This document shows positions 22,723 to 57,119 of a stretch of DNA of 64,000 nucleotides, piece after piece. Position 1 is the first letter of the stretch. Every line of letters starts with the position of its first letter. The translations under genes were made by a program, and so were the position numbers. The DNA comes from Climacium dendroides (taxonomy: Eukaryota; Streptophyta; Bryopsida; Hypnales; Climaciaceae). The stretch spans positions 2,340,001-2,404,000 of the forward strand of contig OX467088.1 in the NCBI GenBank assembly GCA_950106755.1. The letters run 5' to 3'. The notes under the pieces are model-generated. The model saw only the letters and a list, made by a program, of their open reading frames with translations. It ran no database searches and was not told where the DNA came from.

Positions 22723-22775
22723 TTACAACACCCCTAATATCAAACTGCGTGTGAAGAGATGGATTGGACGTCTAA

Positions 22776-27160: not shown

Positions 27161-29436
27161 GGCCTAATTTGCAATTTCAAAGCTAATGGAATAATGACAC
27201 ATTGATCCCAACACTCCCAAGTAATCCCCATTTTCTGTTCTCAAAACCCGTCTCCAAATAATATTGCGTAACTTCACCTCTATGAGAAGGTTATTCCAAT
27301 GAGTCTCCATTTTTATTTCCCATCTTTCATGTTTTAGGACCTAGAATATTTAATTCTATACATCCTTTTTATTTTGGCATACCCTAGACTTGTAACACCA
27401 AAACACATTTATTGAGTCATTACATGTGTCTATGTCACTTTCATCCTACCTTGTATCCATGACTTCACATCCTCCCAGAAAGCCTGAATTTTACACCCTG
27501 GAGCTCTTTCCTATACTGATCAGGTGTTTTCCCTATAGGGCAGCACCCCCCCTGCCCTCTCAGTGACAGCAGTGTACCTGCCCGCAGTGAAAGACGCACC
27601 AGTGGCTGACGTGGCCGATTCGTGTTTTTTTGGACATCATCTGAGACGTCCTTTATTTTTTTGGACACAGTGATATACACGTCCGTTCAAAGTGACATCC
27701 CTATATTTCCTGACGTCTATTATGACGTTTCAGATGATATCACAAAAAATTGTCTCTGATCTGCACGTTCGTCCAAAAACGTAGTGACGTCAAAAATAAC
27801 GGTGATGTCACAGCGTAACGCAGTAAAAAACATGGGTTTCTTATAGTGAATGCTTTAGCCCTTTCTATCCAATAATGATAAATACTGAAAGATATATAAC
27901 ATTGTCAGAACATTGAGACTCTCACCCGAAAAACAAATGCTGTGAAGACCTCAATTGGCATGGAATACCATGTTTTCCTCACTCCTTACATACCACAACG
28001 TTTCCTCTCAGAAGATCTCAACATTTCATTGAACTTTTCAAAAGGCAAAAGTCCATATTTTTGAACACGGTACAAAGTGTGAACCAAATTGGTCTTCACA
28101 TGGGAATCCTTCGTTGACCTACAATTCATACAATACAATAAGTATTTTGCTGAGACATATACAAATTCAACCTAGGAATTCTGAATGTCAAAGCTCAGAA
28201 ACAATAAATTAATAAATTATGATGTCATTTTACTTACTTGTTGATGTCATGCATAATTTGCATGACCAATTCCATTCTGCTCTTTGTATCTGTCGTAGTA
28301 CAGAGTAAGTAAATTCCCTGTTATACCCTCAAAAATCACCCTAAAGCATAACAAAATGACCCTAAAGATCGAACCTACGAGATCCTGTGAAGTAGCTAAC
28401 TCTATTAAGGAGATAAACCCAATAAAACCCTTCACTTCTACTTTCCGGTTGTACCTCGGAAAACCGGAATGTCCAAAACCCAACCGGAAAACTAAGACCG
28501 GACTGTATCCTATTTCCGGTTTTACTAGTTCCACGGTTTTTGGCTAACTTCTCAATTCTGGACCATTCTATTTCCGGTCCTAAGTGTCTACGGAGCGGAC
28601 CTGTTCCGGTTCACTATTTCTAAACCCGGTTTAGTTTTGCCTCTATTTTACCATCAGAGGATTCGCCGCTTGCTTTTGAAAGTGGTAGGCCCACCACTCC
28701 TTCCGTGACTTATAGTGGCTGAAGACCCACTTCCTATCTTTCTATCCTCCTACTCTAATCCGGATCCGGTTTGGTCCTTCATAGCAATCCGGATGGCAAT
28801 CCGGATCACAGGTTACACAAAGACCCCCCGTATGATCCTCTCATACTACAACGACTTTGACGCTGATCCGTTCCGTACAAATTTTGGTGGCTACAAGTGC
28901 ACCCGTCCGTTCCATCAACTACAGAAGTTCTTCCGTTTTACCCACAATGGGGGCAAGACCTCACAGGAGTCAGGACACTCGACCGGATTTCCCACCCAGG
29001 AGTTCTAGCACAGCTAAGGAATCCCTCCCTATCCGCCTAGCCTAATCAACGGCTTTCTTACCTGGAATACTAAACTTCTACAGATGCTGAGGCACTGGAA
29101 TCCACTTCTAGCTCTTCATGACCTACTCAGATGTACTTAGAACCGGAAACATCCATTAAAGGGAGAACTCTACCCACACATCCGTGCATACCACCTTACT
29201 TCAACTCTGTACATTCTTGCCAATACTCGGGAGGAATACACAAAACAAAGTCAATGGAAAGTACACAAGGAAATGCCAAAAGAACTCTCCTCGTCTCCAA
29301 CTCGGAGACTGTTTTATATACAAAAAGCAAAAAGCAAAAAGTGAATACATGATTTCCGCCTCTGAAGGCGCTGACAATCCGGTCCTACCTTATCCTAACC
29401 GGATTCTGTTCCGGTTCCTATTTATAAGTCCTATTT

Positions 29437-30926: not shown

Positions 30927-31062
30927 ACCAACGTGACACCTCCCTCATAATCAACTTCCGAATTATTTTCCTCATAATTGCCGTTGTGTATCCCCCCGTG
31001 TAAGCTTCCGTAAGCCCAAAATATTACAGTTACCGATCGATTCTAACTTGTATTGCTCCAGT

Positions 31063-31275
31063 CAACGACGCTAGTGTGCGAGCCTTGAGCGGCGAGCTTG
31101 TGAGCTGCGAGCGTAAGCCTTGCGAGCATGGAGCCCCAAAAATTATAAAAATCCACCCCCCCCTCCAAAAAAATAAGTTAAAAATTTTTGTTCTAAAAAA
31201 AGACTTGTACTTACTATTTTTAGTAAAATTTGGGACCTATGACCAAGCCACCTATGACCGTGAATTTTTTTTTTT
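31063..31275 (+). repeat. Type 2 terminus of the inner element
   Basis: After CAACGACGCTAGTGTGCGAG come GAGCGGCGAGCTTGTGAGC-type words and then GGGACCTATGACC..ACCTATGACCGTG before a T-rich run. Same architecture as the end at 56291 (minus strand). Confidence 0.75.
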
Positions 31276-31530
31276 AAAATTATTTCAATAATTACCATTT
31301 GAAATGTGAAAATTTTCTTCAACATTAGTATACAGTTAGGCATGTACTTTCAACTCTATAATGCAACTATGTATGCAATCACCAATCATTTATAGGAAAA
31401 GATATAATTAGTTTAGCAAAGAACACTATAAAAAATATTTGACGGACATTACCTAGCCTCCACTATAGCTGCTCTAGAAGAACTCTTAAGACTTAGCTCA
31501 ATATGGGGATTGCGCCCAACGGCATAATTT

Positions 31531-31602
31531 GGGGCCTCACGGGATTCGAACCCGGGCCATCACATTTCAGTCTCATGGACCTCTTGCTAATATACTCCAA
31601 CT
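31531..31602 (-). repeat. tRNA-like sequence (possible SINE head or tRNA pseudogene)
   Basis: On the minus strand, TTAGCAAGAGGT resembles a pol III box A, and about 35 bases later GGTTCGAATCC is a perfect box B inside a CGGG/CCCG T-arm stem. The acceptor ends do not pair, so a functional tRNA is unlikely. A tRNA-derived SINE fragment would fit. Confidence 0.4.
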
Positions 31603-32137
31603 TAATGGAGTGATTACTCAATTGAAAAAAATAAATATAAAGCATAGAAGACGTCTTCCTAGAAAATGGGTAAGTAACCATAAAAGATAAATGACATGAA
31701 AGACAAAAGGAAAACAAAAGAAAGAAATGGGAAGTAAAATGTGAAAAGGAGGGTACTAAATTATACAAAATAGAAAAATAAAATGAAATACAAGTAACAG
31801 TGGAGGAAAAAAAATAATATGGACTTAGGATAGGAAAAAAATAAAAAAACATACAATTGCATGACGAAACAAATGAAAGTCAATATGAAGAAAAATGGAA
31901 ATACTAATGGAAAGCCAAGGTAAAAAAAGGGGAAAGACATGTGAAATACAATTCAAGAAGAGAAAAAGAAAGAAGAAGGAAAAGAAAATGTCATTCATAT
32001 TCATATTTTCATAACTACATTACCTCTTTCAATTGTAGTTTTCAAGCTTCCATTTTTCTTTACTTCCCATCAATTCAATGGTATTTTAAATATATTAAAA
32101 AAATACCATTCAAATACATATGAAGTTTAATACGTGC

Positions 32138-35100
32138 CTACTGTGGCATAGTGATTATTCCTGCTCGAAGTAAAAGAAGTTTCAACTCATTGAAACTATA
32201 ACTCAGTGCATGAATGAATTTGTCGTCATGGATGTCCATCTTGCAGAAATATCGATACAAGTAATATAGGTGCTTGCAATTCACATACTGTTGACGTCCT
32301 CTAATAGCTGAAGTAGACATGTTCACAAAGTCTGGGCATGTGTAGGAAGGGAACATACCCACGGTTACTCGATACACATTTTTGTTCTGATCTATCCCAG
32401 TCTCCAGAGATATGATTGCTCTTAGTCCCGGGAAAGGAAGCAAGGTCACTCCCAAAATTTGACCTCTAACATTGCCTGCACTCTCCCACTTATTGCGTTG
32501 TTCTGCAGTTGGTGCATTTGCTATTCGCCGTATGGTTCGATTGTTCCTCACTGTAGGATACACATCTGCATTTGTTGGCGGGACTTCATCATACACAACA
32601 CTTTCAAAAATCTTTGACATGCTGAACAAACGACGTGGTGACAATGTAGGTTGTTCTTGCAACCGAAAGCCAGCATGTTGCAACAATAAAGTCTCGTCTC
32701 GACTGAGGTTTGTTCCTATCAAAATAGGCCAAATTTCTGGCACATCCAGCCAATCTATTATCCACTTACGCTTTGTACCCTTCACACATCGTTCAATATC
32801 ATCTGTACAAAACCAAAAGTCTGCAAATACCTCTTGTTTTGTTCCGTAATCTTCTTTTCTACCACGATAAGTTGGAGCTGCTATTCCCTTTCGTCCTCTT
32901 GCAATTCGAGCAGTGCACTTCATATTTGACCCTCGCTGCTGAGCTTGACACTTAGCATTAGATTTGTGATTGATCCTTGCAATGTGCCACTTTGATGTGT
33001 CACAATCACTTTCAAATGCAATTGTGACATGGTTATACCTATTTGACTCTGGTTCTTTTCTTTTGCCTTCCGAAGAGTTTATAGGAGGAATAGTGGACCT
33101 TGTTCGGACACGAGGTTGAGAGAAATTTACTTTGTCTAGTCGATGTGAGTCTCCTGCATCGCCAATTGGAACGTCCAATTTCCTCTTTGTGCTCCCAAAT
33201 ATCTCTTCTCCTTCCAAATGTGGTATACGACTTCCAATTCCTTCAGACCCAGGTAGGGAATTCAATGCTTCTGCCATTTTCTTAAGATCTCCACTTCGTC
33301 TTGCAGCTCTCAACTTCAACTCCCCCTTTGACGGACCGGATCCAAAGACATGGCCTCTCAAATATGCATGGTAGTTTGTCATTTGCATCCACGCACGGAT
33401 GCTATCATCACATGTGGCATCAAACAAATTGTTTCCTCGGTTGCCAGACATTTGAAGCCATTTATTATGAACTGTCTCTGATAGATTGCACGAAGGCATA
33501 TCTGCCATCTCTTCCAGATTCAAATCCTAGACATGCATCCAATAACCAAAATTACTTCTCATAATTACTTTCATTCATTCCACCTACAGAAAATACTAAA
33601 GACCATTAATTATGTGCATGTATAGTTCAAATGGCATAAAAGGCATTCCTAAATAATTAATTAGAAAACACATACTATTTATGCTGAAACAAAATAATAC
33701 ATCATCAATATACAATTCACTTTTTACGTCGAATATGACTAAAACTTGCTTGTACGGTAACAAATTTACATATAGAAAAGTGAATATTCTCTTACCATTT
33801 GCATGAACCCCCTCCACTGTCGGTATCTGAAATGCCAAAATGCCAACCAATGCTCCAAGTGATGAAGTGCATCTTCCGTGGCAGCACCTGATGATAACCA
33901 CCATGAACGAATTGCTAGGTAACGTGTCTCTGCCTCCTCCATAGTTTTAGCATCTTTATACTGTTTGCAGAGTATATTGTACTGTTGTTGAAATACTTCC
34001 TTAATATGTTTCTGAGTATGTTCTTGGAGAGAAGTACTCCAATGTAGTAAGCATGTCCTCTCCCTATTCTCCATTTTCTCATTGGCACATCCACTTCCGT
34101 AGACAATTCGAACTGCATTCCAATTGGCCATAGCACTATCTGCCATGAACCCTTTGAAGTTTGGGTGATCTAGTCCATGTCTTGACATGACAACATTCAA
34201 TGACCTCCAGAATTGCACTTGAATTTCCGTATCTTCTGACTGCATATCGCATGTTGCAATGGTCATTACCTTTTTGTACTCGGAATCATACACGTGGCAA
34301 GCCATTGTAGTCCAGTCCTTCACACGCTTCACGTGGTCAAACATCATCCATGCATTCTACAGATTCCCCCCTGGCTGCATGCGCTTCACCAAGTCTACTC
34401 CACTACCAGGTCCTTCGGTCAGCATTTTGAAAAGGTATACCTTCTCCTTTCTTTGACCAGGAAAAACGCTATCATGAATGAACTCAAACTTTGAGTCTCT
34501 TTTCATGGTCATAATGTTGTCTATGACTCCTCCTCTATTGTTTGAGCGAAATGAAAAAATCACATTCCGAATGTTTGGACTGCTCAAATATTGGAAACAA
34601 TCCATCACTTCCTCCAATTCCTCCCCTTGCAACATCTTCTTCTCTCCATTTCTGTTGTGGAATAGATAGTTTGTAAGGAAGTCTTTGCTTGCTGATAGAG
34701 CAATGGCGGAGTTCGTGGCCGTTGGTGTTTTGGCCACTTGCTCTGCAATCAATTCACTAATCTTCTCTGTAGAATCTCTGTACATGCCTTTGGCAGTAGG
34801 GTGAGCATGATGTCCAAAATGAATAGCGGCCCTAGTCATTTTTGGATTCTCACTATAGCAGTAGTACATCCTAGCATCACAGGTGCTTAGACACGTAGGA
34901 GTTTTTCTACAGAGTTTGCAAACCAGAGTACAATCTTTAGGAGGAGTATCCCCTACTGTGAAAGCGAAGGTTGTCGCACCAGTCCACTCAGTTTCGTTGC
35001 GCTTTGAAGCCCTCTTTAGATAGTCACACTCTACATTTAGACAAACAAGATGACCAACGCAGTATGACTTACGGAACTTCAACTTGTCGGAGTTGTGGAT

Positions 35101-35979
35101 GTTTGTAGTCACCAACTTGCACCATGGGTGTCCATCATATCTGTTGTCCATTCCTTCCAAGTTCTTCGCCGCTGATGAAGAAAAAGATGAACGACATGGA
35201 GGCAACTCAAATATGACATTTCCATTGAAGACGGGTGGAAAAAACTGTATGCGATGGTGCTTCATGCTGTTCAAGTCCGTCATTGACAACTCATTCCGTG
35301 AACAATGCATTTTCCCTAATCCCCTCAAAGACTCCATTATACTCACTCGATTCCCTACATCTGGATGCAATGGAGGACGGGACACTTGAGTTCGACCTCC
35401 ACTGTCTGATGGGTTGCTTGACACTGGCTTCACTGAAGCATTTCCCTGCTATGCAACTTCAATTTTGCATGCAGTTCTCCGGACTGTTAAGTCAGGAGAC
35501 TCTCCTTCTAATTCACTAGACAACTCTATGATGGTATCTAACTTCTCAATTTTAACTGGGCGAAGACCTGAGTTATCAAAAAGGACTGGCAGAGCTTGAC
35601 GACTAGGACTGCATAAAACCATATGAGCAACATATGGCATATCTACAGAAGAGTTATCTGACTGCCTACTTCGAATTTCGGTTGATGCATTTACCATAGA
35701 CAATGGTAGCCCATAAGCTCTATAGTTTCCAATAGGAAGATACCAACACTGACTTCCTTCCTCTATAGACTTCAATATTGGAATTGACTGCTGTACTTCT
35801 CTTGATTCAGACATTCTCTCTTCTTCTACATAGATGGACGACTCCACAAATCTAAAACGGACGTGTAAGAGATGGCTCAGAACTCTAGCGTGTCTACCCT
35901 CATCAATTGGAAACACTAGGGGAATGTCATGGCCATCTACACGAATGCAAGCCATGATACAATCTTCACTTGAAAACAA
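32138..35979 (-). pseudogene. MULE-like transposase with SWIM zinc finger
   Basis: One frame runs from 35979 to about 33766 with TAG stops at 35449 and 34357. An intron (about 33764-33532, GT-AG) follows, then exon 33531-32138. The N-terminal region contains Cys/His clusters (VGHLVCLNVECDYL; later IHFGHHAHPT), likely a zinc-binding DNA-recognition domain. The middle (34347-33780) resembles the MULE DDE core: FKGFMADSAMANWNAVRIV followed by RTCLLHWSTSL, the usual second-Asp block and C..H block. The C-terminus has a SWIM finger, but its first Cys is Tyr (YTCPDF..NCKHLYYL). The paralogue at 55194 keeps CTCPNF. The gene ends about 1.07 kb from the type 2 terminus. It would cut and join element ends in the nucleus; the two stops and lost Cys suggest this copy is inactive. 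Confidence 0.8.
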
Positions 35980-36245
35980 TAGTGAAGATCAACTACAAAT
36001 TTGTCTTCGGTGTTTTGAGTATGAATACTCACTCTCTTATAGTGCATTTTCATGCAAATTGACTTTACTATACAACTAGTGAAAACTGAATAGGATACTA
36101 GGAAGTAGTTAAACTTCAAATTTACCGGACATTAACAACTGTCTTGCAACTTGTACAACATTCTCATAATAGGGCCCCACAGTTAAACATTTATTGATGT
36201 TCGCGGCTATACCTGGCACACTTACACTACGTATAGAAGAAGTAC

Positions 36246-36420
36246 TTGCGCACCAATTTCAAAAAATAGAATAATTGGCAACTAAGCCTAGTACTCTAGT
36301 AGGCTCAGATTGTCTACAATAGAATTATTTGCGCAACAATTTCAAAAATTAGAATAATTGGCAACTAAGCCTAATACTCTAGTAGGCTCAGATTGTCTAC
36401 AATAGAATTCTTTCTGCACC
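36246..36420. repeat. Two tandem units of 83 bp
   Basis: TTGGCAACTAAGCCTA and AGTAGGCTCAGATTGTCTAC occur in both units, 83 bp apart. This stretch lies upstream (5') of the transposase. It could hold promoter elements, but nothing specific is seen. Confidence 0.8.
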
Positions 36421-36429
36421 AATTATTTG

Positions 36430-38870
36430 AAAGTTGATAACATGACTACCACTGAGGTATACAGTACAAAAATATAATAGAATAACCTATTTTCCACATA
36501 CAATAAAAAGGGATTGCATTGCAATTTTCTGTACATAAATGAACACATCCATTTGTACTGTCTATGCTTCAGTAATTAGAACTGCTTTCAAAGCACTTCC
36601 TAAAGAAAGAAGATGGTTTACAAATTCCCTCGGATTGCCTCATGGGGATTGCATATATATTCCTTCAAATTCCCTCATGGATGGCCCAAATGTCTACATT
36701 CATTACAATTGTGATGAATATGAAACTAACTTCTGATTGTGAGTTCTTGGCTAAACTTTATTTTTAATCCTATTTAACTTTCATAGTTTCTGGTAACTAT
36801 AAATCATGCCCAATGTTATGGATATAGTACAATAAACAATGAAATAAGCCAATCAGCCTGCCTCTTTAATTAGGTTCCTTCATCATGGCAAGTTCCTTTA
36901 TCATTCATTGGCTTCGGCATACGGTGGCACACACCATTTTATAAGCCCAAGCCATTAACCTTACACAAATCCACATAACCCACATAGTTGCATCCTTGGA
37001 CAGGAAATGAAAATATTTATCTAGTGTAGAATGTGAAGAGAGTATAGTGGTATCGTAAAACTTAATTTTTCTATTCACTGTAGCGGAAATGTAATTATTC
37101 GTATAGAGTAGAAATTGAAGATAATAGTCAGAAGAGAACTAATTTAGCATAGCATTTCTGAACATTTTGTGAAATTAAGAATTAATCTTTCTATTCCATA
37201 TTCGACAATAGTCATAATGAGTACTCTTCCATTTTGTATTCAACAAAATGCACTTAAAGTTTTTGGTTTCATGAAGTTTGGACCTGCATTAGAAAATTGA
37301 TTGATTTCTAAGTATATTTTGAGTTGTAGCAACGGCACAGGGCACTCCAGTATTCTCATGATATAAGGTAGGTGGCTCTTAAACCGACCCTTAAAGAGGT
37401 CATTGCATTTTTGGGAAAGCTAAACAGCTCAAAACAATTTTCAGTGAATTGGCGTAGAAAAAAAAATTGAATTGACATCTAATCCCAGTCGTTTCATATT
37501 CTGTGGACCTTTGTGGAATTCGAATCCACTTGCAATTTCGACTCTAAATTTTTTGTTGACGGTCCTTGCAGCATTGTAAGCCCATGCACTAGAACGATTG
37601 CCTAGTGCCCGAGAAGAGAATTTCACATAAATCCTAAAGTTCATGCATGAGACAACGTAGTGTGAAGTTCGATGAATTGTCCCAAAATTCTGTGCATCGC
37701 TTCAGTCTATAGTCTCGTGAAAATTTCTACGTGACCTCACGACACCACAAAAGCAATCGGAATGGCTGGAATCCCAACTCACCATCGAGAATTAACTTCT
37801 TGAAATTCATGGGTCACCGTATTCATTGGATACGGTGCTGTAGAGGAAGAGCCCGAGGGCCGTTCAGGGGTTAAATTATTACTGTCAGCCTGCTTATCGT
37901 GGTATTTAACCTTCTCTCTCAATACTCTTCTACTGAGCAAGCTAGTTTCATGGAAATCAAGCAGGTTTTACGGTGCAGCCTTTTTGCGGTTGGTAGATTT
38001 TGACTGGGATTCTTTCGTAAACAGCCGAGCTCATCCAAATGCATGCACCGAATTCATAACCACAAACCAAATTTGATTGAGATTCTTCCGTGAACAGCCG
38101 AGCTTGTGCATGCAAGTGAGCATTTACTTTAAATCAGCATATTCTGAATTCCGGAAGAACTTTTAGCTTTGCGCACGGTACTCCCCAGCTTTGTCCGGGC
38201 ACTAACGTTCCCACACCAAAATGCCCTCCATTGCTTGCGCAAACAGAGCCTTCTAAGGCTTTGTTTTTGAATCCATCGCGAGCAAGGCGTGCCATTAGCT
38301 GATAATTACATGATGAAAAATACAGAGTTGATTCGGCAAACCTGGACAAACGTCAAAAACTAAAGCACCTGACAACGTCGCATGCATGACGTGCCATCTT
38401 AGGATCTGAATTCGCTAAAACTGAAGGCCACTGAAAATCCTTTTCCGACTGAACTACCTGTACTCCATGTGCATCATTATGAGTTTGGAATCTCCTGCCA
38501 TACTGGAATGACGGACCGCATGTGGCCATGCTGACATTGAGGGAAGGAATGTTTTGAATTTGAAAAGTGTCTTCCGAGGTTCTTCCTGGGAATCTTCCGT
38601 AAGAACTTCCTTCCTCTAGCTTTGAATGACTGCAGTATAGAATTGCAGGGTCTCTCAGACATCCTCAACTGCTTGCTTCGTGCTTGACGTTCTGAACTGC
38701 TTGCTTAGTACTTGACGTTCTCTTGTTCGAGTCTCTGGACGGTCCACGAGTTTCCTATAGTATCCCTGAAGTCCCCTTCGGTAAGTGTCCTCTCTCCTCT
38801 TACTGTAGTTTCCAGTTAATATTTCCCGTTCGTTTAAGCTTCATTGACTTGCTCTTGTATTCTAGCTGAA
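36430..38870. other. Interior of the inner element, no gene recognised
   Basis: No supported coding region is seen. Notable short structures are the palindrome CACCGTATTCATTGGATACGGTG near 37818-37840 and a duplicated phrase containing GTAAACAGCCGAGCT / GTGAACAGCCGAGCT at about 38000-38115. The stretch probably holds the divergent 5' regions of the transposase and of the plus-strand genes. Confidence 0.35.
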
Positions 38871-39463
38871 CTTCTGTCGTCATGCAGGTGGCTTCGAACT
38901 TCGGCGGTACGCTCCAACCTCCGAGAATGCGGAACACTAGGAGACAGAAGCGGCTACAGTCGGAAGAGGTGGAGCCGGCACCGACTTTAAATGACCTGCA
39001 CAACAACCAGGTTAGCATCGTCCTCCAATCGAGATGTCTGGCTCTCATTGTGAAATATTTGAACTTTTTTCTACTCTGAAGATTCTAATATTTACAGCAG
39101 TTTTCCTTTTCATCTAGGTATATAGTTTGTTTGAGCAGTGATGATCAGTGAGCATCTATGCCAGGCATAGCTGCTTTTCCGTTTTTGATTGACCTTGAAT
39201 TGAAGATCGCCCAGTCTCTGTTTCGTAGACAAATGCCTTCGATCGGTCATAATAAATTGATCATTAGAATGTAGTTGAATTTCATGAACCACTAGTTCAG
39301 CAGTTGTCTCGTCTTCCACAACTAGATCAGTAATGTGAAATAGAGGTTCTGTCATAGACTCTGAAGTATTCTCCCGTCACTGCGATCGTGGAAGAGGTAC
39401 GTGCATGAGGAGGTTCGCGATGAGGAGGTTCGGAAGTTCCGAAACATCCTGGAACTGGAAAGG

Positions 39464-39589
39464 CCAAAGTGACCAGCAAGACACGAATTGGGGGTAGCGT
39501 GAGCTACCCCAAGGAACCCTGTCGGGTCCGATAGGGTTCCCTAGGGTAGCTCACGCTACCCCCAATTCATGTCTTGCTGGTCACTTTGG
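39464..39589. repeat. 126-bp near-perfect hairpin
   Basis: The left arm CCAAAGTGACCAGCAAGAC pairs with GTCTTGCTGGTCACTTTGG. The pairing continues through TTGGGGGTAGCGTGAGCTA nearly to the centre at GTCGGGTCCGATAGG. It lies about 500 bp upstream of the coding region at 40094. Confidence 0.9.
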
Positions 39590-40093
39590 TGTCGTTGTGA
39601 GGATTCAACAAGGTCCTTCAACAGATTCAACAGAGCTATAGAACTACTCCGCCATCATGGTTTTTGTGGGAATCTGGAATCCGGAAACAGAGCAATAACA
39701 CAAGAAGTAGGTGCAAAAAAATAGAAAAAAATGAAAAAATTATAGTTAGATTGTGATTTTTAGACCAGATAGCTTGAATTAGAAAATTAGCGTTCCGGCA
39801 CAACCCTAAACCGGAACTTATCTGGATCCGGAATCCGGACTCATCCAGAACGTAGGAACCTACCGTATAGGTCCCGTAGCTACAGAAGTAGGATACCGTT
39901 GAGACAACGGACCTGTAGCCGTTGTCCTTAAGACCGTAGAAAGACAGGTTAGTACTTAAGCTGTCCTCTTAGGGTTTCCTCTTTACTTTTTCTGTTCAGT
40001 GTTCCTGAGACTGTTTTTGTGAGTAGTTGAGAGAAAGAGTGGTGAGTTAGCGATTGAGGTAGAACTACTTTTTTTCCTTCTCACGTAGATCTT

Positions 40094-42013
40094 ATGGCAT
40101 CCGGACCAGTACGGAAGATAGTGGTATCCGCCCGGGTGATCTCTCCGGCCATTCCGGATAGCTCGGAACTGCACAAACAATTGGAGGAGGACTTGACTAG
40201 GTTAGGATGTGTCAGTTTACTACACCGACCGTGGACCCTCAAAAGTGAAGAGATGATCCAAGAACTACTTCACGGAGTTCCGAACCAGTACGAGCTCACC
40301 TTGAGAGGGCGGCCAATTGCGTGGACCGAAGACATCTGGGCGGACGTATACCAGTTCCGGAAGAGTGGGAACGGCTTGGCATCGAGGACGGATCGTTTCG
40401 TAGCGGAGAAGTTCGCGGGGTCTGCCAACCCTAAGGACGGATTCGCTATCAGCGAGTGCAAGGACGAAAGACATAGACGGATACTAGAGTTTTTAATTCC
40501 GATCCTCTATCTGGAGAAGCCAACGCGGGTTACCATTACGGTGGCCAATACCATCTTTGGGGATATGGAGAATCGGATAGTGCATTGGGGTAGGGTCATA
40601 GCCGGAATAGTGTCTAAACTAGCGGATCACGTGACCCGAGCGAAGGCGAGTCCAGTTAGCACTTATCTGTTTCATCTGTACCATCAGCAAGAACTTTTGA
40701 GTGCAGCGGAGATAATTCAGTACGACACCGGAAAGACCCTCTTGTCATATGGACTTTCCGGGGAGGAAGCGGAAGATCCGGTTGAGTCTGAGCCGGAGGA
40801 GCTTCCCGAGGAACGGCTGACGGATCCAAGGACCAAGAAGAGGAAGTCAACCGATCCGGGTTCAAGAATCAAGCCGCCGACAATGGAGAGGGGGGAGTCC
40901 AGTAGAGGACCTGAAATGGAAATAGAATCCGCATTTTTCAATGCGGGGTTCGATTGGATACATGAAGCCAAGGTACTTCATGACGGGTTGTCAGACTTGG
41001 TGATAGATACCGCGGAAGTGTTGAAGGTAGATCCGGATCAGATCGTGGAAGCCGTCAAGCGACTGCCCAAGCCGGAGGATCTAAAGAAGAGGGACGAGCG
41101 GATCTAGGAGTTGGAGGCGGAACGGAACCTACTCCAGACTCGGGTGAATTGGGCGGAAGGGGAAATGGTAGCTGCGAAGGAGAAAGAGAAAGAGGCCCTT
41201 GCTCTGGTCAAGAATTTAACCGGAGCAGTCAACATCAAAGCCGACATCATCACCAAAGCTGCCTTGTTTGACTCAAAGATGATCTCGGAAGGCCACATTA
41301 CCGGAACCAAGGTGGTTACCATTCTCGTGGACTTCACCGTGAGGATAGAGCGGATTTTCAAGGAAATTCAGAAGTTGCTGATGGCCATCGACCCAAACCA
41401 TGCAATGGACTTCTCCACCTTTCCGGAACTTCCTTTTGTCGCAGCTACCCCAGGGAAACCAGTGGCGGATCAGGCAACACGGATGGAGGGCTTGCGGAGA
41501 ATACTCACACCAGCCGAGCCTTCCGCCAGTAAGATACGGATGACAGAGTTGAACTTGAGGCCAGCCTCGGAACCGACACCGGAGCCGGAACCGGAGTCTA
41601 GCGCGAAATCGGTTCCAGTGCCATCCAAGTTCTCAACTCTGGAAGTTCCCAAGGCGCAAACAATGCTGAACTTGATGACCGAGACATTCAAGGTTCTAGG
41701 GCAGCAAGTCAGGGGAGATCTGATCAGCTGGATCAGTGGAATGACCAATCCGGCTCGATCTAATCCGCAGGGATTTGTGCATATGCAGGAGACCACACCG
41801 GAAGAGAGAAGCAAACCCGCAACAATGGAGGACACCACACCGAAGAAGGAAGGGGAAATTCAAGTCATCGAAGATTCCGAAGAAGAGAGTGCCCACTCCA
41901 CTTCCGGAACCGAAGACGACAGCGATCCGTCTTCTGCAACGCGTCATATCCAAACTCGGGCCACAGCAAAGACCACGCCAGCAAAGGGTACAAAGGGGAC
42001 GCCTTCCAGCTAA
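40094..42013 (+). pseudogene. Repeat-encoded protein, copy B (globular domain plus coiled coil, one TAG)
   Basis: A single frame of about 639 codons has one in-frame TAG at 41105-41107, between DERI and ELEAERN. Residues 1-220 form a globular region with conserved phrases: EEMIQELLHGVPNQYELTLR, PILYLEKPTRVTITVANTIF, WGRVIAGIVSKLADHV and STYLFHLYHQQELLSA. A charged linker, a coiled coil (ELEAERNLLQTRVNWAEGEM) and HITGTKVVTILVDF follow, then a Pro/Glu-rich tail. The globular part loosely recalls plant mobile-domain proteins encoded by retroelements, but this is a weak resemblance. The TAG is explained by a single C-to-T change from CAG. Codon use is GC-richer than the surroundings, as in copy A. 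Confidence 0.65.
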
Positions 42014-43099
42014 GCGGGGAGCCGGTCAAAGAAGGGACGGAAACCAAGACATTAGGGTTAGTAGAAAGTGTAGAGTCCGGAATTGGGTTCCGAGCATAAA
42101 TCCGGTTTCCGGGATCTTAGGCGGATAGTAAGGGATTCGGTTATCTAGGGCGGCGGTTAGCAATCTTTCCGGATATCCCGGGGTTTGCAGTGATTGGTTG
42201 CCTGGATTTCCGGGTTTCCTTTTTAGGTTGTTAGGAGTTGACTTTGGATTTTTGTGTTAGTATTTTAAGGGCAGGCAAGTTAGTTGTCTGCCATTCCATT
42301 CTACTCCATTCGACCTTAGTGCTTTCACGTATGTATTTTGATCTCCTTTTTTTTTCTAAGTTAGTCAGGGTGCCTCTAGCTGCACTTTGCTTAGACGGAA
42401 TCTTTGGCTCAGTGTATGCATGTGTGTGTATCCGTGTACTGGAGAAAGAGAAGGGAGGGAGAGGAGGAATCCGGATCTTGAGCCACGGATCTCTTGGTGT
42501 TGAGCTGAGTGGGAGAGATGTGAATTGAGTAAGGGAGTGTAAGTGTGATGTGCCTTTAAATTGCCGGAACGGCAATCCGGGTAAGAAGGTAGAGGTCCCT
42601 GCGAGTCCGGAACCAGGAGGGTTCTGTGCGGAGATAAGCAACCGCCAAAGGAAAGGAACTCCCGCTACTTCGGAAGGTCTACCAACCTCCCCCTTGGTAC
42701 ATTGTCTTTCCCTTGAAACTTTGTCCCTTTGGTCTATGAGTTCAGATCCGTCGTTGTAGTAAAGGGAGGTGTGAGAATTGCTCTGTGTGACCTGATTCCG
42801 GATCGGCCAATCCGGAAACTGTGAGAGAATACTCCTTCCTCCTCCTACAACTTTGTTGTCTTGGGTGTGTTGTTTTAGTAGATTTAGAGTATAGAGAGGA
42901 TAATTGCACAAGTGGTGAGTCCCCACCCCTTTCTAGATCAAGGGCGGACCCTCTGAAGGTAAAACAGAGGCAACAAAAACCAGTGATGGAAGAAAGACGG
43001 AACTCAGTTCCGGGTGTATTCGGATCCAGAACGGAATCCGGAAGGTACTAAGTTTCCGGAATAAGGGAAGGTAAGTGAAAGAAAGAGGATTAAGTGAGT

Positions 43100-43225
43100 A
43101 GTCTCCATCCGGATGCTTCTAACTCAATCGATATCATACTAGAAGTTCCCTGGACCGATAATTCGTGTCGTCTTGCAACAATTTGTGGTTGTAAGGATAT
43201 TTACGGTTAACTACGCGTACGACAG
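43100..43225 (+). repeat. Repeat shared in inverted orientation with 59545-59655
   Basis: On the minus strand this reads GTTAACCGTAAATATCCTTA ... ACACGAATTATCGGTCCAGG ... CATCCGGATGG. The stretch at 59545-59655 reads the same on the plus strand with scattered differences. It lies downstream of a repeat-gene copy in both places but in opposite orientation. Confidence 0.7.
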
Positions 43226-44872
43226 TTTTTTTTTTCCATTCATCCAATCTTGTCCGTATGGTTTGATTGGGTACTGCAGTTAGGTACAGTACGCTTCAAT
43301 AGCAATACAGTAATGATGATAAATAGTGTTACGTATACTAATTGATTTAAAGAAGTCAACTATTGGACAAAATTATTTTACAAAATTACATTTAGTGTTA
43401 CCTATTATTTCATAAAATTACAATGAAAAAAATAAAAACCTGAAAAGATGAATTAAGAAATGGTGAACAAAACACTAAATGCAAACCAATTGAAATTTTG
43501 AGTGGGTGTGGTAGAAATTCAAGTAAAACTATTAGTAACATAACACTAAATACCATCATTAGTGTAGTCAACGTGACTTTAAGTTCATTGAGAAATTCAT
43601 GGTCAATGCAAACGCCGTGGACCAAAATGCACACGCCATGACAAAGCAAGACCAAAACCAGGGGTAGCGTGAACTACACCAAGGAACCCTATCGGACCCG
43701 ACAGGGTTCCTTGGGGTACCTTACGGTACTCCTATTTCTCGCCTTGCTAACCTAGTCTCCATGGTGAGGGACGCTCAATATGCACGTCAGTAGTGGATTT
43801 ATAGTACATTTCAGCAGCCATGTTTGGGTGCATTGACCGGGAATGACCTCAAGTGATGTCCACGTGATTTTGTTTTATGTTCAAGTGCATGAGTTCTATT
43901 TTTTTAATTGTTTCAATTCCTTGAGTTTCCTCCCTGTATGATTATAAGGAAGGGATAGGCATATGTCATAAGAGGGCTTTCCCTATTTTCGTGCAAATTA
44001 CAGAATTTATAAATATTTGGTATTCTAGCTATGGAAATGCTGAAATGGAAGTCAAGTAAGTTTGAGATGTCAGTTTCTGTTTTTAATATTGATTTTTTCT
44101 TCTTACTTTTTATTGATGTACTCTTAGTATTATTTTTTAAAAATTTATTCGATTGTAACTAACATTGGCCTACCTTATTATTAAAATGGTTTTGTAGATG
44201 AATACACATGAGAGTCTGAACGACCATGCCCTTTTACCAATACCTTCCAATATGGCAATCCATATTGCAGATGTTGCGGGAACTTTGGAACCTAAGACTC
44301 CAGAAGATAGAAACATCAACATTGCTAGCCAGTCATTGCCTCATGAAGACACTGACTTGGTAAGCCTTGGAGACATTCTTGATGCTTGTGACTGAGCAAC
44401 TGATCAATTAGATGAACCTTGTTGCAGTAGGTTCAGTGATTCCAAAAGACGAAAACGAAAACAACCAGTGTTCTCTCCTGAGAGTTCTGAGACTGAGTAT
44501 AGTAGCTCTAATTGTCAAACATCAATCTCCATTTCTAGTCCATCAATTGAGGATATTAGAGATACTGCTGGCAGCTCCGGATTGGGCAGGCATGATATTG
44601 TCCTCATCCACTTGAGTTCTGATTCAAATGCTAGTGTAGAAATTGATTGAGTTTGAAAGGAATAGAAGCAGTTGCAGTGTTGCAGCATTTGTATTACTTA
44701 GTCATTGGTGTTATTATGATACAGGCGATTATGTATTACTTGTACAATCCTTTGTATTGAGAATTTTCTTACCATCATAGTAAAGATTTGTTTGAAAGTT
44801 GAACTTGGAACTTCTGGAGGACTTCCGTGTATTTCGTAATTGCTCTAAAAAATGTATATGATCTTGCAGATG

Positions 44873-47800
44873 GAGGAGTCACCAATTAATCTGTTACAGG
44901 CAAAGGAAGTTCATTCAACTCCACCTACCAGTGAAAGAGGTCAACCAGAAATTGGCACTGAGGAAGAAGGAGATGTTGAGGTGAATGATGTTGATGAGGA
45001 GGAGGAGAAGGAGTTGCTGGAAGATGAACTCCGACGGTTGCAGAAGGTAGACTCTGTGGCCACCATCGAGAGTTTGAGGATGAGGCCTCAAAAACACTCC
45101 CGAATGCGCATACCTTTGTGCAGATTGGTACCCATGCTAATGGTTAGGCCCACCCTCTCTTGTGATCTTGTAAAGCTTGAATAAGAGTTTGTTCATGGAT
45201 ATCGGGATGGAGCCGCAGTTTTTTATGTTTCCACAACTAATGAGGCGGGGGAGTCTTCTGAATTCTCGAGAGATGAAATGGATGCTTGGGGTCCTCTGTG
45301 GAAATCAGAGAATGACATCTTCAATGAGTACTTAGATTCATTACCAGAGTTGAGGTACTTGAAGAATTCAAAGTTTTTTATCTGTGATGGAAATCACCGT
45401 CGCTTGGCGTGGATGAATCATATCTCGAGGCTGCATGTGGCGGATCGAGCTTGGCACATTTCAATAGATAGCATCATTTTGGACACGAAAGGGAGAATAG
45501 AGCTTGTCATGCAGATTATGCATGACATCAATAAGTAAGCGTGTATCATATGATGTTGTTTGATTGAACTTAATCTTTGACTTTTATTATTTTGTTATTC
45601 AATTTATTCATATGTATGAAATGATTTTATAGCCTAATGTGAATTGTAGGTCAACAGAGGATTCCCATGTGAAGACCAATCTAGTTCATACTCTTTATCG
45701 TGTTCAGAAGTATGGGCTTCTTCCCATGAAGAAGTTCAATGAAATGTTGAGACCTTCTGAGAGGAAACGTTGTGGTACGCAATCAGTGAGAAAAACATGG
45801 TACTCAATGCTAGTGGAGGTCTTCACGGCTTTTGTTTTTCGGGTAAGAGTGAAAATGTTCTAATTATTTTATATATCTTTCATTTTAGGTCATTACAATA
45901 TAGGAAGGATTGAAGAATGTGCAAATTTGCTGTAATTGAAATTGTGTTGATGTTATTTTTTAGCAAGAGATAGCTCAAGGAGCGGATGCCGCAGTACGGA
46001 AGTACAATGAAGTGACAGCATCTGAAGATAAAAGTGATCAAGGGGTGGCTAATGCCATGAGGGTTGGAGCTAAGGAGAAGGCGACAAAGTTGTACGTGAA
46101 AATGGGAAAATTGCTTGCGGTGGCAAATCCTACTCACGGTCCAGGATTTCTAGAAGAGGTGATGAAGATTTATGATGTAAAAAACGGTTGTCTTATTTTT
46201 TATTATTGTGATTTATTTAATGCTGAAATTTTTTTATTTCCTTGTGAAGATTGAAAAGCATTGGACCACAAATGAAGTTCCTGAAATGACATTGGAAAAG
46301 CTATAAATGGTAGCCACTTGCAATACCTCTGTAGCACAGAAGACAAAGTTGTTGAAGTGGTGGAACTCGTTCATGCCTTCACGGGATGCCAGACGTTTCC
46401 CTCCAAAGCCAGTTTTTGAAGATAAATTGGGGCCTTTCCTCAATAAATGGGTTTGGTGGGCAGGGGTAAGTGTTTGTATTTATGTAAATGATATTTCATG
46501 TATATAATGACAAAATCATGAAGTACTACATTTTGCAGTTTTGGTTTTTCATGTATACGAAACGATAATGGAGTTGTACTGATAAGAATATAATGCAGAT
46601 TGAGGATAGTGCGGTAGAGTACTTTGACAATGTAGTCAATAAAGATGGCCTAAAAATCAATATGGCATCCCCACTTCAACCGGAGTATCTTCCAGAGTAT
46701 ATAGAAGGATGGAGAAGGAAGATTTGGGATCAAGGTTTTGGCCCGACTTTGAAGGGATCAAACCCTTTTAAGAAGTCGGAGACCTTCTCAAATTTTGATG
46801 GATCAAATGATGTTGTTCGTAGAGTTTTTTTCTGGTATGTTTATGTAAATATGAATTTTATGTTTCCTTACTTTCTTCGAAGGATGAGCATACGTAGTTA
46901 TTTGTTCAGTGAATTTGTGTTATTTGTAACAAGGAATTCGGCTATGTGATTGTTACTAATTTTTTGAATGTTCTTATTGTAGGTATTTCAAGTACGAGCT
47001 TTTAGGGAAGAACGCCATACCTAGGGAGGATCTTCCTCCATTTCTAACCACATGGTTGGACTGGAGTTTTGAAGAGTGCATGTTCACGTCAAGCCAATTG
47101 AAGACATTCACGACGGCTCATCTGAGTGGTGGTGCATGGTATCTAGATTGTCCGTTGACATTTACTCATCCATCGGAAGTAGAACTTCGGAAATCACTAG
47201 ATGGTCTTGGCGTCATTGACTTAGAGGTTCCCGAATTCAACAACTACACTGATCAATAGAAGAAGAAAGCAATTGCAAGGAGAATGGTTGCTAACAAAAA
47301 GAAAGAGAACAAAGAGCAAGAGATTCGTGAGAACAAGGAGAAGAAAGAAGCAGAGCGTCTTATGAAGTTAGCAGAGAAGGAGAAGGAGAAAGAAGAGGGC
47401 AAGGGGAAAGGCAAAGGCAAGAAGAAAGAAGAAGGCAATAAACAAGTACCGGCGTCTTCAACGGTTGATCAGAACTCGCACATGCAAAGTGGATCCCAAA
47501 GTGGGTTGAAGAGGAAGGCGATACTTCCAGATTTCACAGAGGACATCGTAACACAAGGTACTCAAGCCATAGTTCTTGGTGATGATGCAGACGTCACTTC
47601 AGAGGAATTGATCTTGAACGTCTCTATAGTGGACGTGATGGAAAATATGGAGTCCAAGGTGCCCAAGTGCTATACTGAAGTGACGACCTTTTTGAAGAAG
47701 GTAACCATGATGCTTTGTCTAGAACTATGAATCCTTTTTTTTGTGGACCTTTGAAAAAAAGTTGTATAAATAATTGATTATTTGCATAAATTCGTTTCTG

Positions 47801-50161
47801 CAGTTGGCACCAGGGAAGTCCCGTATGTATCACTAGAAGAAAAACGTGTCCGTTGCAACCCACTGAGATGCGACTATGTGTCCTATACAACTGAAATGCG
47901 ACTGTAGCCCTTTGTATTTGCACCAAATTTCACGTGTATGTAGTTGTAGTCGCAAAGTAGTCGGAAAATGAAGAATAGGGTTACGATACTGTAACAGAAG
48001 AACTGACATGAGGTGTTATACATCCAGTATTCATTACAGTTGTCCATGTGGACAGCTATCCGCGAAGTAGAGTTCACCGTGGAAAAATGCAATCGCTCTG
48101 ATTACAGATTGCAATTAAAAACTAGAAGATTGCAACTTAGAAATGACTCAAATGCAACTAGGAATCAACTATAATGCAACTAGAGCCCGACTACAGTGCA
48201 ACTAAAAAACGATTCAAATGCAACTAGAGAACAAGTGCAATGCAGCTAGAACATGACTGAAAATCGACTCAATTGTCCCATATCGATTGTCAAGAATACC
48301 ATCAGCTTGAACAGATAAGAATGGTAAGTTACAGCATTCTTGTGTAATGAATTTTGATAGTGAAATTCTTATATTTATATATTTTGTAGATTTTTACACT
48401 TTGTAGATTTCTACAATTTGTAGATTTCTATAATCTACAAATCTATAAATTATAACCAAGTCGCAAACTAGTTGCAAACCAGTTGTATGTCAATCGCAAA
48501 CTAGTTGCACACTAGTCGCAAACGAGTTGCACATCAATCGCAAACCAGTTGCACATTAGTTGCAAACCAATTGCACACAAATTAGTGAAATAACTTTCAC
48601 GTAAGCAACCATGTCACAACAGTTCATCGACGAAGTTCTCCATTGCCTATCAGATGACAAACAACCTCGTGACTGCAGTGCAACTCATGCGACTTGTCCA
48701 CTGCGACTGTGGACTCCAGAATATCACCAAGTCTCAAATGTCCGATACGACTACAAACTAGTCGCAAACAGTAGTCGCAAAACCCTGCTTTTTCTTCTAG
48801 TGTATGGAGGTAAAGTGAGCCAAGCACCTTTAGTGGACCTCATCTTCTTTGACTGCCAAGAGAATGTACTTGTCCCAGATGTATCTTCTCCAGAGAAAGC
48901 AATACCTTCATGGAATTCAGATCCAGAGTATGAAGCCATTTAATCGGCCTTTTTCTTTGCAGATATGCACTTACACGACCATGGTTGCATGATAGTATTT
49001 CAGTCGTGGTGTGCCGATTCAAAGGGCATTATTGCAGGATTGTGCGAGTCTTATCCTTCACTGGTAATGAAGAAGGAATGGTTGGATATCAATCGTATGC
49101 ATTTAACTTCAACTGTGGAGGACTCGGAAACGGTTAGTGTTTTTCAAATATTTTCATAATTTTAATGGAAACTGGCATTGACAGATGGTTGTATTCTTTT
49201 CTAATACATAATTTTTTTGTGACTGTAGACTTTGAAGTTTGGAATCACTCTCTTGGTGAAGGACCTCGGTGATAAAGAGAACTTAGGGTTCTCTTTGAAG
49301 CGATCGTAAGCAATGCAAAAGGCAAAAGTAGACCTATGCAAGGATGATAAATTAATTAACTACACAACTGAAGAGAGCATGTTGGTCAATCCACTAACCA
49401 AAATTCCATGGCGAGGGCCTCGCGAAAAGGATGTTAGGTTCTTCCAATTCCTTATAGAGGAGACAACTGAAGAAGGCGACTTGGTTTTCGACTGCACAGC
49501 ATCCACTGGTTAGTTTTCATTTTAGTAACTGGATTTTCATATATGTGTTCATATAATGATTCATTGATATGAATTGCATTTTGTAATTTGTAGGTGCATC
49601 AATTACAGCATGTCGCGGCACGGGACGACACATAGTGGCTTTAGAGGAAGACAACACTGTTTTTCACGCCGTCCTTGAACCTATGAAAAGGAACACTGAA
49701 AAAGATGTGATAATAACTGAAACGCAACTGCCACTGCCGGCTGCATCTTCACAAGATCCGGACGCAATGATAGTGGTTCCTCGGAAATTTCCTCGCTGAA
49801 CTAAACCTAGTAAGTAAGTTTTTCATATTTTTCAAGTGCTATTTGCCATCCTACTTCTTCTATTTCGTGACTTTAATATTCTATATGTTTTTTTTGTAGG
49901 TGTAAGAAATTGATGTCCACAGATGCACTGAGGAAGAGACGCAAACTAGTACTAAGTCCAGAGAAGCCTTTTGATCTCCCAGTTTATGCTGAGCAATTAG
50001 CATCAGCATTTGCAAACTTTGGTAGCTTAGAACCAAAACGTAGAAAAGATACCTATGCTCTTAATGTTCTGCAATTTATAGATGAATCGGCAGCAGAGGG
50101 GAAAGAGACTTCAGAGTCTGAGAGTAGCTTGGCATCTGCAACTCAGTCCACTACAACCTAG
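44873..50161 (+). pseudogene. ParB-methyltransferase-like fusion gene, copy 3 (ten exons)
   Basis: Exons with GT-AG borders lie at about 44873-45534, 45650-45842, 45964-46178, 46250-46466, 46600-46834, 46983-47700, 47805-49134 (split by a CACTA element), 49229-49509, 49594-49815 and 49901-50161. The order of domains is as follows. An acidic N-terminus comes first. A ParB-like domain (RIPLCRLVP ... SKFFICDGNHRRLAWMNHI) is followed by helical regions and a Lys/Glu-rich linker. A motif IV-like VDLIFFDCQENV, a motif X-like GPREKDVRFFQFLIE and a motif I-like VFDCTASTG/ASITACRGTGRHIVALEED complete the methyltransferase fold. The order IV-X-I is that of beta-class N4/N6 DNA methyltransferases. The DPPY-type catalytic tetrapeptide is replaced. 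In-frame stops lie at 45182, 46304, 47257, 48941, 49307 and 49798. A ParB-methyltransferase fusion is typical of phage and bacterial proteins, so finding it in a plant-type transposon is unexpected. Confidence 0.82.
47828..48805. mobile_element. Non-autonomous CACTA element, 972 bp, with TAT target duplication
   Basis: The element proper is 47831-48802. It has 14-bp perfect inverted ends, CACTAGAAGAAAAA and TTTTTCTTCTAGTG, and is flanked by TAT on both sides. The interior carries dense subterminal words GTTGCA/TGCAACT/GTCGCAAA in both orientations. It interrupts the methyltransferase-like exon within the codons for RMYGGKV, whose uninterrupted form is seen in copy 2. It has no coding capacity. 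Its subterminal words differ from those of the 13-kb CACTA element, so it belongs to another family. Confidence 0.95.
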
Positions 50162-50629
50162 ATTTATGAGATTGATATATCTCATGAGTCAAATTATTAT
50201 GTATTCATTTACAGTATGATTTGATTTGATTGTGTGTTTTATGGCTACATCTTTAGTATGATTCATTCCCCTTCAACATTTTGCATTTTATATTTTCTGT
50301 CAAAATTAACTCTTGAACGTCGGATAGGGTCCCGTAGAAATCAATGATTCTGGAACCGTGTGACATCATTTACTTTAACAATACCAAAAATAATTATTGG
50401 GAGTCAAAGTATTGTAGAAAATCTCTCTTTTCCACCTTTAATTATGTCCATGAATAGTTGCAGTTACGTCCTACATATGAGATTATTTTGTCATTCATTA
50501 GACATTTGACGTCCTGTATGGCCTTTCTAGGTTGAATACAATTGGTTGTTGCAATTTTTTATTTCATTTAAGTTTGTAAGTAAGTAAAATTTCAGAAGAA
50601 TGAGCTCAAATCTTCACAAAAAAAAATAC

Positions 50630-50742
50630 ACTTACATCCACGGTCATAGGTCCCCCACATTTTTTTAATAAAAAATCTTTTCCACTCATAGGCTCACAGG
50701 CTCATGGGCTCACGCTCACAAGCTCGCCTGCTAGCAACCCTG
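50630..50742 (-). repeat. Type 1 terminus of the inner element
   Basis: Read on the minus strand it starts CAGGGTTGCTAGCAGGCGAG, continues with GTGAGCCCATGAGCCTGTGA words and a T-rich run, and has GGGACCTATGACCGTGGAT. It nearly matches the end at 10924, so these two copies belong to one subfamily. Confidence 0.8.
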
Positions 50743-50752
50743 TTGCTCCAGT

Positions 50753-55154: not shown

Positions 55155-55745
55155 CCTGTTCTCTCTGGAACAAACTTAACCCGCGAAGAGACCTTGTTGC
55201 TGCAACATGCCGGATTTCACCTCCAAGAACAATTAATTCTATCACCACGTCGGCTATTCTACATGTCTAAGCTATTCAAGTCGGTTTTGTATGACAACCC
55301 TCCGCCACTAAACTCAGATGTGTATCCAACAGTGAGAAACAACAGAGCAATTCGAAGGATTGCAAATGCGCCTACTCCCGAGCAACGGAACAAGTGGGAA
55401 AGCGCAGGCAATGTTAAAGGACAAATTTTGGGAGTAACACTGCTCCCTTTTCCAAGCCTTGGTGCAATTGTGGAGTTAGAGACAAGGTCAGACTCTAACA
55501 GAAATACATATAGAGTTACGATGGGCCAATTTCCCACATGCACATGCCCAAACTTTGTGAATATGGCAGTTTCTGCAATTGGAGGTCGGCAGCAGTACGT
55601 GAACTGCAAACACTTGTACTATTTGTACAAGTACTTTTGCAAGATGGATGTCAATGAAGACAAATTTATTCATGCACCAAGCTATAGCTTCAATGAATTG
55701 AAGTTGTTGCTATTTCAAGCTGCCATGATTACACTTCCAGAATAG
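55155..55745 (+). pseudogene. Transposase C-terminus of the outer element
   Basis: The frame matches the last 195 or so residues of the transposase at 32138. Shared phrases are LLLQHAGF, RRIANAPT, EQRNKWESAGNV and NELKLLL near the end. The SWIM finger is complete here: CTCPNF ... NCKHLYYL, a C-x-C-x19-C-x-H pattern. There are no internal stops. The 5' part is missing at the LTR-like repeat. The position about 0.55 kb from the type 2 terminus agrees with the layout of the inner element. Confidence 0.85.
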
Positions 55746-56291: not shown

Positions 56292-56301
56292 GTGTGCACT
56301 A

Positions 56302-57119
56302 TGCTGTCTACAAAGGTAACATCTACAAATTTACATTGGAAGATTTTAGACAACATAGCCAAGGACTTCAAAATGTCATCAAGAAAGAACAAAATATAAA
56401 TGACCTTGAATTGGTACAACTTTCCAAAAATTGACGGAGCCTTACTAGCATCGTTGTCCTTCACATCATAGATGTAAAACAAGACAGACTCTAACGAGTC
56501 ACACAAAGTACTCACCGCCTGCAAACGAGAAAGCCACCTAATTTTATAGTAGCGTTTCATGCATTTTTGTGCATCAATGAGCTCCTCTTGCAAGGTAGTC
56601 AAAGTATGCTTCCGCTTAAACTATTTGTAGAAAAAAGAAACAATTAAATTCAACAAGAAATCAATCTCATCTGAAATCACCTTGTAAGAGGAGCAACTTT
56701 GCAGCATCAAGGGTGGCCAAATTTGTGTGGTGCGCCACATAGTGAACAACGAGCAAATAAGGGTTTACCTCTCCTTTTAGGCATGCAGCCACTCCGTTGT
56801 GAGAGACCGTCATTGTGCTAGCGCCATCGCTGCCAAAGCCCAAGAACTTCTGCAAGTCCAAGTTCCACAATTACAGAACTGCAATCAAAACTTGGTAGAT
56901 GATGCTTGCATCCTTCTTCCCACCTGCAATTGGCAACAAGCCTAGAAAAACACTCACCGGTAGCCCCTCCTTGATGATACTAGTAAACACCACAAGGTGC
57001 CTTGTGACACTGATATCGATAGATTCGTCTATCATCACACCAAAAAACGGTGAATTTTGAACACGGTTGAGAATTTGCTTATGAATTACAACTGAAATGC
57101 ACATTATCAAATCAACCAC
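56302..57119 (-). pseudogene. 5' part of the hAT/ZNF862-like gene
   Basis: Minus-strand segments read FFGVMIDESIDISVTRHLVV, then LGLLPIAGGKKDASII, LGFGSDGASTMTVSHNGVAA, YVAHHTNLA, and WLSRLQAVSTLCDS. These are the D-E-S and G-S-D-G-A blocks of the RNase H-like region in ZNF862/DUF4371 hAT-type proteins. In-frame stops occur near 56872 and 56665. The gene runs into the target duplication at 56301 and continues at 8538 on the other side of the outer element. Confidence 0.75.

Follow-up and report, generated by a model that had tools for sequence, protein, structure and literature searches.

We examined a window of 64,000 nucleotides from the moss Climacium dendroides (contig OX467088.1, positions 2,340,001 to 2,404,000 of the forward strand; all coordinates below count from the first letter of this stretch). 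It holds a Mutator-like element (MULE-like element), here called element 1, which carries a transposase gene on the left (minus strand), a small acidic open reading frame (ORF; plus strand) and, on the right (plus strand), a ten-exon gene for a protein with a GxxR motif in its N-terminal region and a methyltransferase-like C-terminal third, which we call the fusion gene and the fusion protein. An earlier note on this DNA had described a spliced gene with the block CDGNHRRLAW, a charged linker and methyltransferase-like motifs in the order IV, X, I, and such a gene was confirmed at 44870-50161 on the plus strand: a K/E-rich linker separates the CDGNHRRLAW region from the methyltransferase-like motifs, and the motif order in this copy (copy 1) is IV, X, I. 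Exon borders of copy 1 were inferred from GT-AG sites and frames, from genomic DNA alone. Element 1 is composed as follows:

31053-31062: left target-site duplication, 10 bp, TTGCTCCAGT, a perfect match to the right one
31063-50742, plus strand (oriented by the fusion gene): element 1, MULE-like, its ends aligning with the ends of other copies
32138-35988, minus strand: transposase gene, broken in element 1, read from its ORFs
44198-44650, plus strand: small acidic ORF, with one stop in element 1, upstream of the fusion gene
44870-50161, plus strand: fusion gene copy 1, ten exons placed by splice sites and frames; a pseudogene
44870-45534, 45650-45842, 45964-46176, 46250-46465 and 46599-46834, plus strand: exons 1 to 5
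46983-47700, 47804-47830 with 48806-49132, 49229-49508, 49594-49813 and 49900-50161, plus strand: exons 6 to 10
45383-45400, plus strand: CDGNHR motif (GxxR) of the N-terminal region, within the longer block CDGNHRRLAW (45383-45412)
47831-48802: CACTA-like insertion of 972 bp inside exon 7, with target-site duplication TAT
48851-48865, plus strand: motif IV position, with DCQEN where the phage proteins have DPPYN
49415-49459, plus strand: motif X region, GPREKDVRFFQFLIE
49478-49508 and 49594-49652, plus strand: motif I region, DLVFDCTASTG/ASITACRGTGRHIVALEED, split by an intron at 49509-49593
50743-50752: right target-site duplication, 10 bp, TTGCTCCAGT, a perfect match to the left one

Copy 1 has the transposase gene (35988-32138, minus strand) on one side and the right end of the element (50742) on the other, as the earlier note had placed it. 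The left end of element 1 begins CAACGACGCTAG and the right end finishes CTAGCAACCCTG. Its terminal inverted repeats match imperfectly; over their first 120 bases the two ends gave an alignment score of 34, which none of 200 shuffles reached (the best of them scored 20). The claim of a gene inside a complete MULE-like element thus held for the ends, the target-site duplications and the layout, but copy 1 itself is a pseudogene, with six in-frame stops (45182, 46304, 47257, 48941, 49307 and 49797) and the 972-bp insertion. The insertion, whose ends read CACTAGAAGAAAA/TTTTCTTCTAGTG, is not present in the sister copies aligned across that point. The window does hold three copies of the fusion gene, as the note had said, each broken or incomplete: copy 2 is split with most of exon 1 missing, and copy 3 consists of exons 7-10.

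The window was searched against its 412.6-Mb genome, and we scored 40 of 294 candidate first-exon copies, 150 of 905 candidate copies of the copy-3-type methyltransferase exon and 150 of 959 candidate transposase segments, the last of the copy-1 kind. The first-exon stretch has at least 40 genome copies (identity 91-100%) and the copy-3-type methyltransferase exon at least 150 (identity 72-100%). The same ten exons were found in sister copies, and the exon structure is common to subfamilies at roughly 50-70% identity (exons of some loci of other subfamilies were read from frames, where tblastn gave no matches). Alignment of the sister copies extends over at least 13 kb inward from a sharp right end, and this right end is present in 9 of 11 copies compared, the window copy included. 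A right-type end also stands 3' of the fusion gene at loci L026 and L040; the inner end motif only was seen at L030-L038 (9/9) and L041, close to the border of the sequence examined. Among the segments scored, a transposase segment lies upstream of and divergent from the first exon within 20 kb in 33/40 copies, at a spacing of 7.5-9.1 kb in 29 of those 33; in 200 trials of random placement such pairs numbered 0.25 on average and never more than 3. For the copy-3-type exon, pairing within 25 kb was found in 25/150 copies (random mean 0.68, maximum 3), and 8/150 had a transposase segment in the other orientation or on the other side; the low 25/150 is perhaps due to a transposase set confined to the top 150 copy-1-type segments. 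We concluded that a diversified MULE-like family carries a transposase and a spliced protein of about 1118 residues in a fixed layout, with the small acidic ORF between the two genes in the copies read.

Of the eight sister copies assembled, only c40a (C40:11.34 Mb) keeps its frame open throughout, over 1118 codons; exon 9 there is followed by a donor other than GT, and that junction was assumed. Six of the eight (c34a, c1a, c40b, c34b, c3a and c41a) have internal stops or a frameshift, and c40c is open through exon 6 (the readings of c40c and c34b count through exon 6 only). Two further copies, c39a and c38a, are without the 3' part. The ratio of nonsynonymous to synonymous substitution rates (dN/dS) between c40a and copy 2 was 0.19 (bootstrap 0.15-0.24, 815 codons), taken over exons 2, 3 and 5-10, with exon 4 omitted for a frame break and exon 1 nearly absent. 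Between c40a and copy 3 (exons 7-10, 364 codons) dN was 0.40 and dS saturated, the finite bootstrap replicates falling at 0.09-0.21. The C-terminal part of the transposase gave an omega of 0.065 (196 codons; dS 2.7, nearly saturated). Pairwise dN/dS among eight young copies was 0.27-0.91, which fits copies in decay. The fusion protein is maintained by purifying selection.

The methyltransferase-like C-terminal third was compared by hhalign with four phage methyltransferases. Alignments of six, seven and nine sequences gave probabilities of 96.6, 97.4 and 98.0 with E-values of 5e-10, 1e-11 and 3e-13 (each for a single comparison), and the score was reached by 0/20, 0/30 and 0/40 shuffles, respectively; for nine sequences it was 91 against a shuffle maximum of 19.8. 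The alignment places DCQEN opposite DPPYN of phage EJ-1. The methyltransferase family phrog_18293 of PHROG was matched by 6/6 sequences (best E 2.3e-9), tblastn found a phage DNA methylase (E 7e-7), and DpnA was matched in PDB (E 0.018). Against Pfam N6_N4_Mtase, single sequences reached E 0.0004-0.003, short of the curated cut-off, and a whole-genome search with the PF01555 profile (12/14 controls detected) gave 22 matches at E <=0.1, none above the cut-off. A scan of viral contigs yielded 217 pattern places and no relative. On these profile comparisons, the C-terminal third is homologous to the beta-class amino-methyltransferases of phage type.

The catalytic motif DPP[YFW] is required for N6/N4 chemistry. 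It was found, also in the wider form (D/N/S)PP(Y/F/W), in 0 of the 26 distinct places read. Across 23 distinct places (25 read) motif IV is DCQEN in 17, DYQEN in 2, DCQKN in 2, NCQEN in 1 and DCPKN in 1, and three more stretches have DVPEG (2) or DILEN (1). Its first D is identical in 9/9 aligned sequences, one decaying copy having N. Motif X (PWRGPREK) is strongly conserved, as are the motif I region and the acidic residue that follows beta-2 (ALE/AFE). The S-adenosylmethionine (SAM) loop of motif I (FxGxG) reads TASTG, TAATG and kin, with the second G retained and the first Gly replaced by Ser or Ala. The motifs reported in the earlier note belong to a true methyltransferase relative, but a functional enzyme of the usual kind is not supported; ordinary N6/N4 methylation by the fusion protein would be unlikely, because the catalytic motif is absent in all 26 places. 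Two further fusion subfamilies, with DVPEG and DILEN, were seen at L055, L056 and L057-L059; a reading of DCQEN as carrying a Cys nucleophile was dropped once these two motifs turned up.

The N-terminal region had been taken for a ParB-type block, and here profile searches of the joined exons, which recovered methyltransferase relatives in PHROG and by hhalign, returned no ParB match in Pfam, PHROG, NCBIfam or PDB among the proteins scanned. The ParB_N profile PF02195 had no match in the whole genome (11/14 controls detected). In separate hhalign runs against ParB the score was reached by 10 and 26 of 30 shuffles, by 20 and 23 of 40, and by 12 to 18 of 40. GNHR is present in 7/7 aligned N-terminal regions, a short pattern that is weak by itself, and a single-sequence structure model of part of the first exon, the structure prediction that the note had called for, had a predicted local distance difference test (pLDDT) score of 33, too low for the fold to be read. 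What stands of the block is a short motif match. We describe the region as ParB-like by motif only, and not as ParB, because the profile tests fail and the profile-profile scores are reached by many shuffles.

Could the gene nevertheless have been acquired as one unit, a ParB-methyltransferase fusion from a phage or bacterium, with a genuine ParB/Srx NTP-binding domain at its N-terminal end? The ParB fold is often fused to N6_N4 methyltransferases in phages, has the P motif GxxR and is linked to mobile elements, according to passages of PMC12704722, in which the fusions come from phages, bacteria and archaea and sulfiredoxin is named as the most common ParB-fold representative in eukaryotes. 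The phage ParB-N6/N4 methyltransferase fusions of Streptococcus phage EJ-1 (ORF37) and Javan25 share with the moss protein a methyltransferase domain homologous over 201 aligned columns, the motif order IV-X-I and a GxxR motif N-terminal to that domain. They have about 420 residues and DPPYN, whereas the moss fusion has about 1118 residues, is spliced and has a long middle region, a DCQEN-type motif IV and a candidate ParB part. The order of parts thus matches these two phage proteins, whose N-terminal ends are ParB-like, and local alignments against a nine-sequence ParB set put GNHR, as the GxxR P motif, on the phage GHTR. In one hhalign series, 3 of 24 settings scored above all 15 shuffles, but these three do not align GNHR with the P motif in the alignments shown. 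DUF1015 matched over the GNHR motif at E 0.013-0.057 in 3/5 N-terminal regions scanned, a weak hint at best; the unrelated KMP11 scores better (E 0.0012), a match that was taken as chance. With the failed profile searches and the shuffle results set against it, acquisition of a true ParB fusion in one unit seems to us somewhat unlikely.

To follow the decay of the copies we aligned nine copies of window positions 43225-47830 (4607 aligned columns). Among 245 singleton changes, with direction set by the majority, 203 were C>T or G>A, and the per-site rates of these were 0.21 at CG, 0.24 at CHG and 0.07 at CHH. Cytosine methylation in plants includes a CHG component, and C>T decay at CG and CHG is its expected mark, in keeping with a plant host. 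The pattern suggests that element copies have been heavily cytosine-methylated by the host after insertion.

Copies 2 and 3 and the remaining features of the window are listed below:

8529-8539 and 56292-56302: 11-bp duplication GTGTGCACTAT flanking the outer element
8540-56291, minus strand: outer element of copy 3, its extent inferred from matching ends
10833-9412, minus strand: fusion gene copy 3, exons 7-10 only, open frame, motif IV DYQEN
28290-27926 and 14746-11277, minus strand: fusion gene copy 2, split by a long insertion, most of exon 1 gone; right element end at 10924
39665-43224: nested insertion of about 3.6 kb in element 1, not present in c40a, c34a, c40c and c34b
55155-55742, plus strand: transposase C-terminal fragment of the outer element

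Element 1 and the right end of the element of copy 2 lie inside the outer element, whose ends (first 120 bases each) aligned with a score of 31 against a maximum of 23 in 200 shuffles. Target-site duplications of 9-11 bp and terminal inverted repeats mark MULEs: the duplications are 10 bp in element 1 and 11 bp in the outer element, and the repeats, though imperfect, beat all 200 shuffles in both. The flanks of copy c1a share CTCGTGTGATC (by eye). Some 13 kb of sequence at about 14801-27850 interrupts copy 2; its borders, CACTATAAGAAA and TTTCTTATAGTG adjoining ATT, by eye suggest a long CACTA-like insertion. The insertion at 39665-43224 has a 5-base overlap at its junction and long ORFs at 40058-41107 and 41108-42013, and is perhaps a long terminal repeat element.

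By eye, and more clearly in sister copies, the transposase of element 1 shows a DDE-like segment (34347-34015) and, near 32330, a SWIM-like end of the form CxC..CxH; its Pfam SWIM match (E 0.15) is below the cut-off. In other subfamilies, too, a similar acidic ORF stands upstream of the fusion gene (L039, 745-1290; L041, reverse, 1688-2218; L054, 2018-2389). It ends in a hydrophobic-acidic stretch, e.g., VIILNSDEDED, which we take to resemble a SUMO-interacting motif. Two members scanned had no Pfam match. A separate search of Rfam at gathering thresholds gave no match.

MULE accessory genes are already known. MULE groups in the table of PMC6446971 carry second ORFs, SET, an ovarian-tumour gene and PMD, and the words 'methyltransferase' and 'ParB' occur 0 times in its main text. 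In the portions of PMC13317346, PMC10398659 and PMC5735166 consulted, the anti-silencing protein VANC of the VANDAL MULEs in Arabidopsis comes from an accessory gene, and the host genome silences the MULE by methylation. Our search of titles and abstract starts, with few subscription papers, turned up no MULE described as carrying a methyltransferase or ParB protein, and a methyltransferase-type accessory gene appears to be new within the literature searched.

The best explanation overall, which we put forward tentatively, is that the fusion protein is a conserved accessory protein of the MULE, based on a pseudo-methyltransferase, and that it would bind element DNA and aid transposition or anti-silencing. 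Its C-terminal domain would bind DNA, and perhaps SAM, without carrying out ordinary N6/N4 methylation, because DPP[YFW] is missing from every motif IV read, with conservation retained in the fold, in motif X and in the motif I region. As its most likely function, the protein would recognise element DNA and help the expression or transposition of the element by one of two routes: it may protect the element against cytosine methylation by the host, in the way that VANC proteins protect VANDAL elements, or it may act as a transposition partner. The likeness to VANC is one of proposed role and element context, and demethylation could be proposed by analogy with VANC only.

Several observations weigh against this explanation. 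The transposase gave no MULE Pfam match, 7/40 first-exon copies are without an upstream divergent transposase among the 150 scored segments, and 5/40 also have a transposase segment in the other orientation or on the other side. The DCPKN subfamily is without any Pfam match at E 10, and motif IV was read in just 3/22 of the PF01555 places, so copies with a canonical motif IV may exist elsewhere. The retained second G of motif I would allow SAM binding or other chemistry. Since the C>T decay points to methylation of the copies, any protection would be incomplete. Anti-silencing by the fusion protein is speculation.

Alternatively, the protein may be a transposition partner only, binding the element ends or the transposase with no role in silencing, for which MURB of MuDR is the analogue invoked. 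The fixed pairing with the transposase (33/40 copies) and the purifying selection on both genes agree with this; nothing specific speaks against it, but it offers no reason for a methyltransferase fold, and we consider it somewhat unlikely. An active DNA-modifying enzyme with an unusual active site, which would bind SAM and modify element DNA, leaving a mark that serves the transposase or counters silencing, is improbable. The conserved motif X, motif I region and ALE/AFE acidic residue, the nearly invariant D of motif IV and purifying selection across the domain would fit such an enzyme, but DPP[YFW] is absent in 26/26 places, the first Gly of the SAM loop is replaced, and the residues after the D differ by subfamily (CQEN, CPKN, VPEG, ILEN), so that no alternative catalytic residue such as Cys is conserved. 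We give slightly less credence still to a fuller scenario, in which a phage-type ParB-methyltransferase fusion entered a plant MULE lineage long ago, lost the ordinary methyltransferase chemistry and became an element-encoded DNA clamp or reader excluding host CG/CHG methylation from element DNA, its subfamilies diversifying together with their elements in an arms race. Random capture of a host gene without function (Pack-MULE transduplication) would suit the three broken or incomplete window copies but is strongly disfavoured, and hardly credible, given the open frame in a sister copy, the common exon structure across subfamilies, the low dN/dS and the fixed layout; the gene is a regular component of the element, as the earlier note had proposed, on the evidence of the terminal repeats, the 10- and 11-bp duplications, the 33/40 layout and purifying selection.

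If the pseudo-methyltransferase explanation is true, a conserved protein of this kind on element copies would give a transposon a novel means of dealing with DNA inside a host that methylates, and the fusion subfamilies would be ready material for testing sequence-specific recognition.

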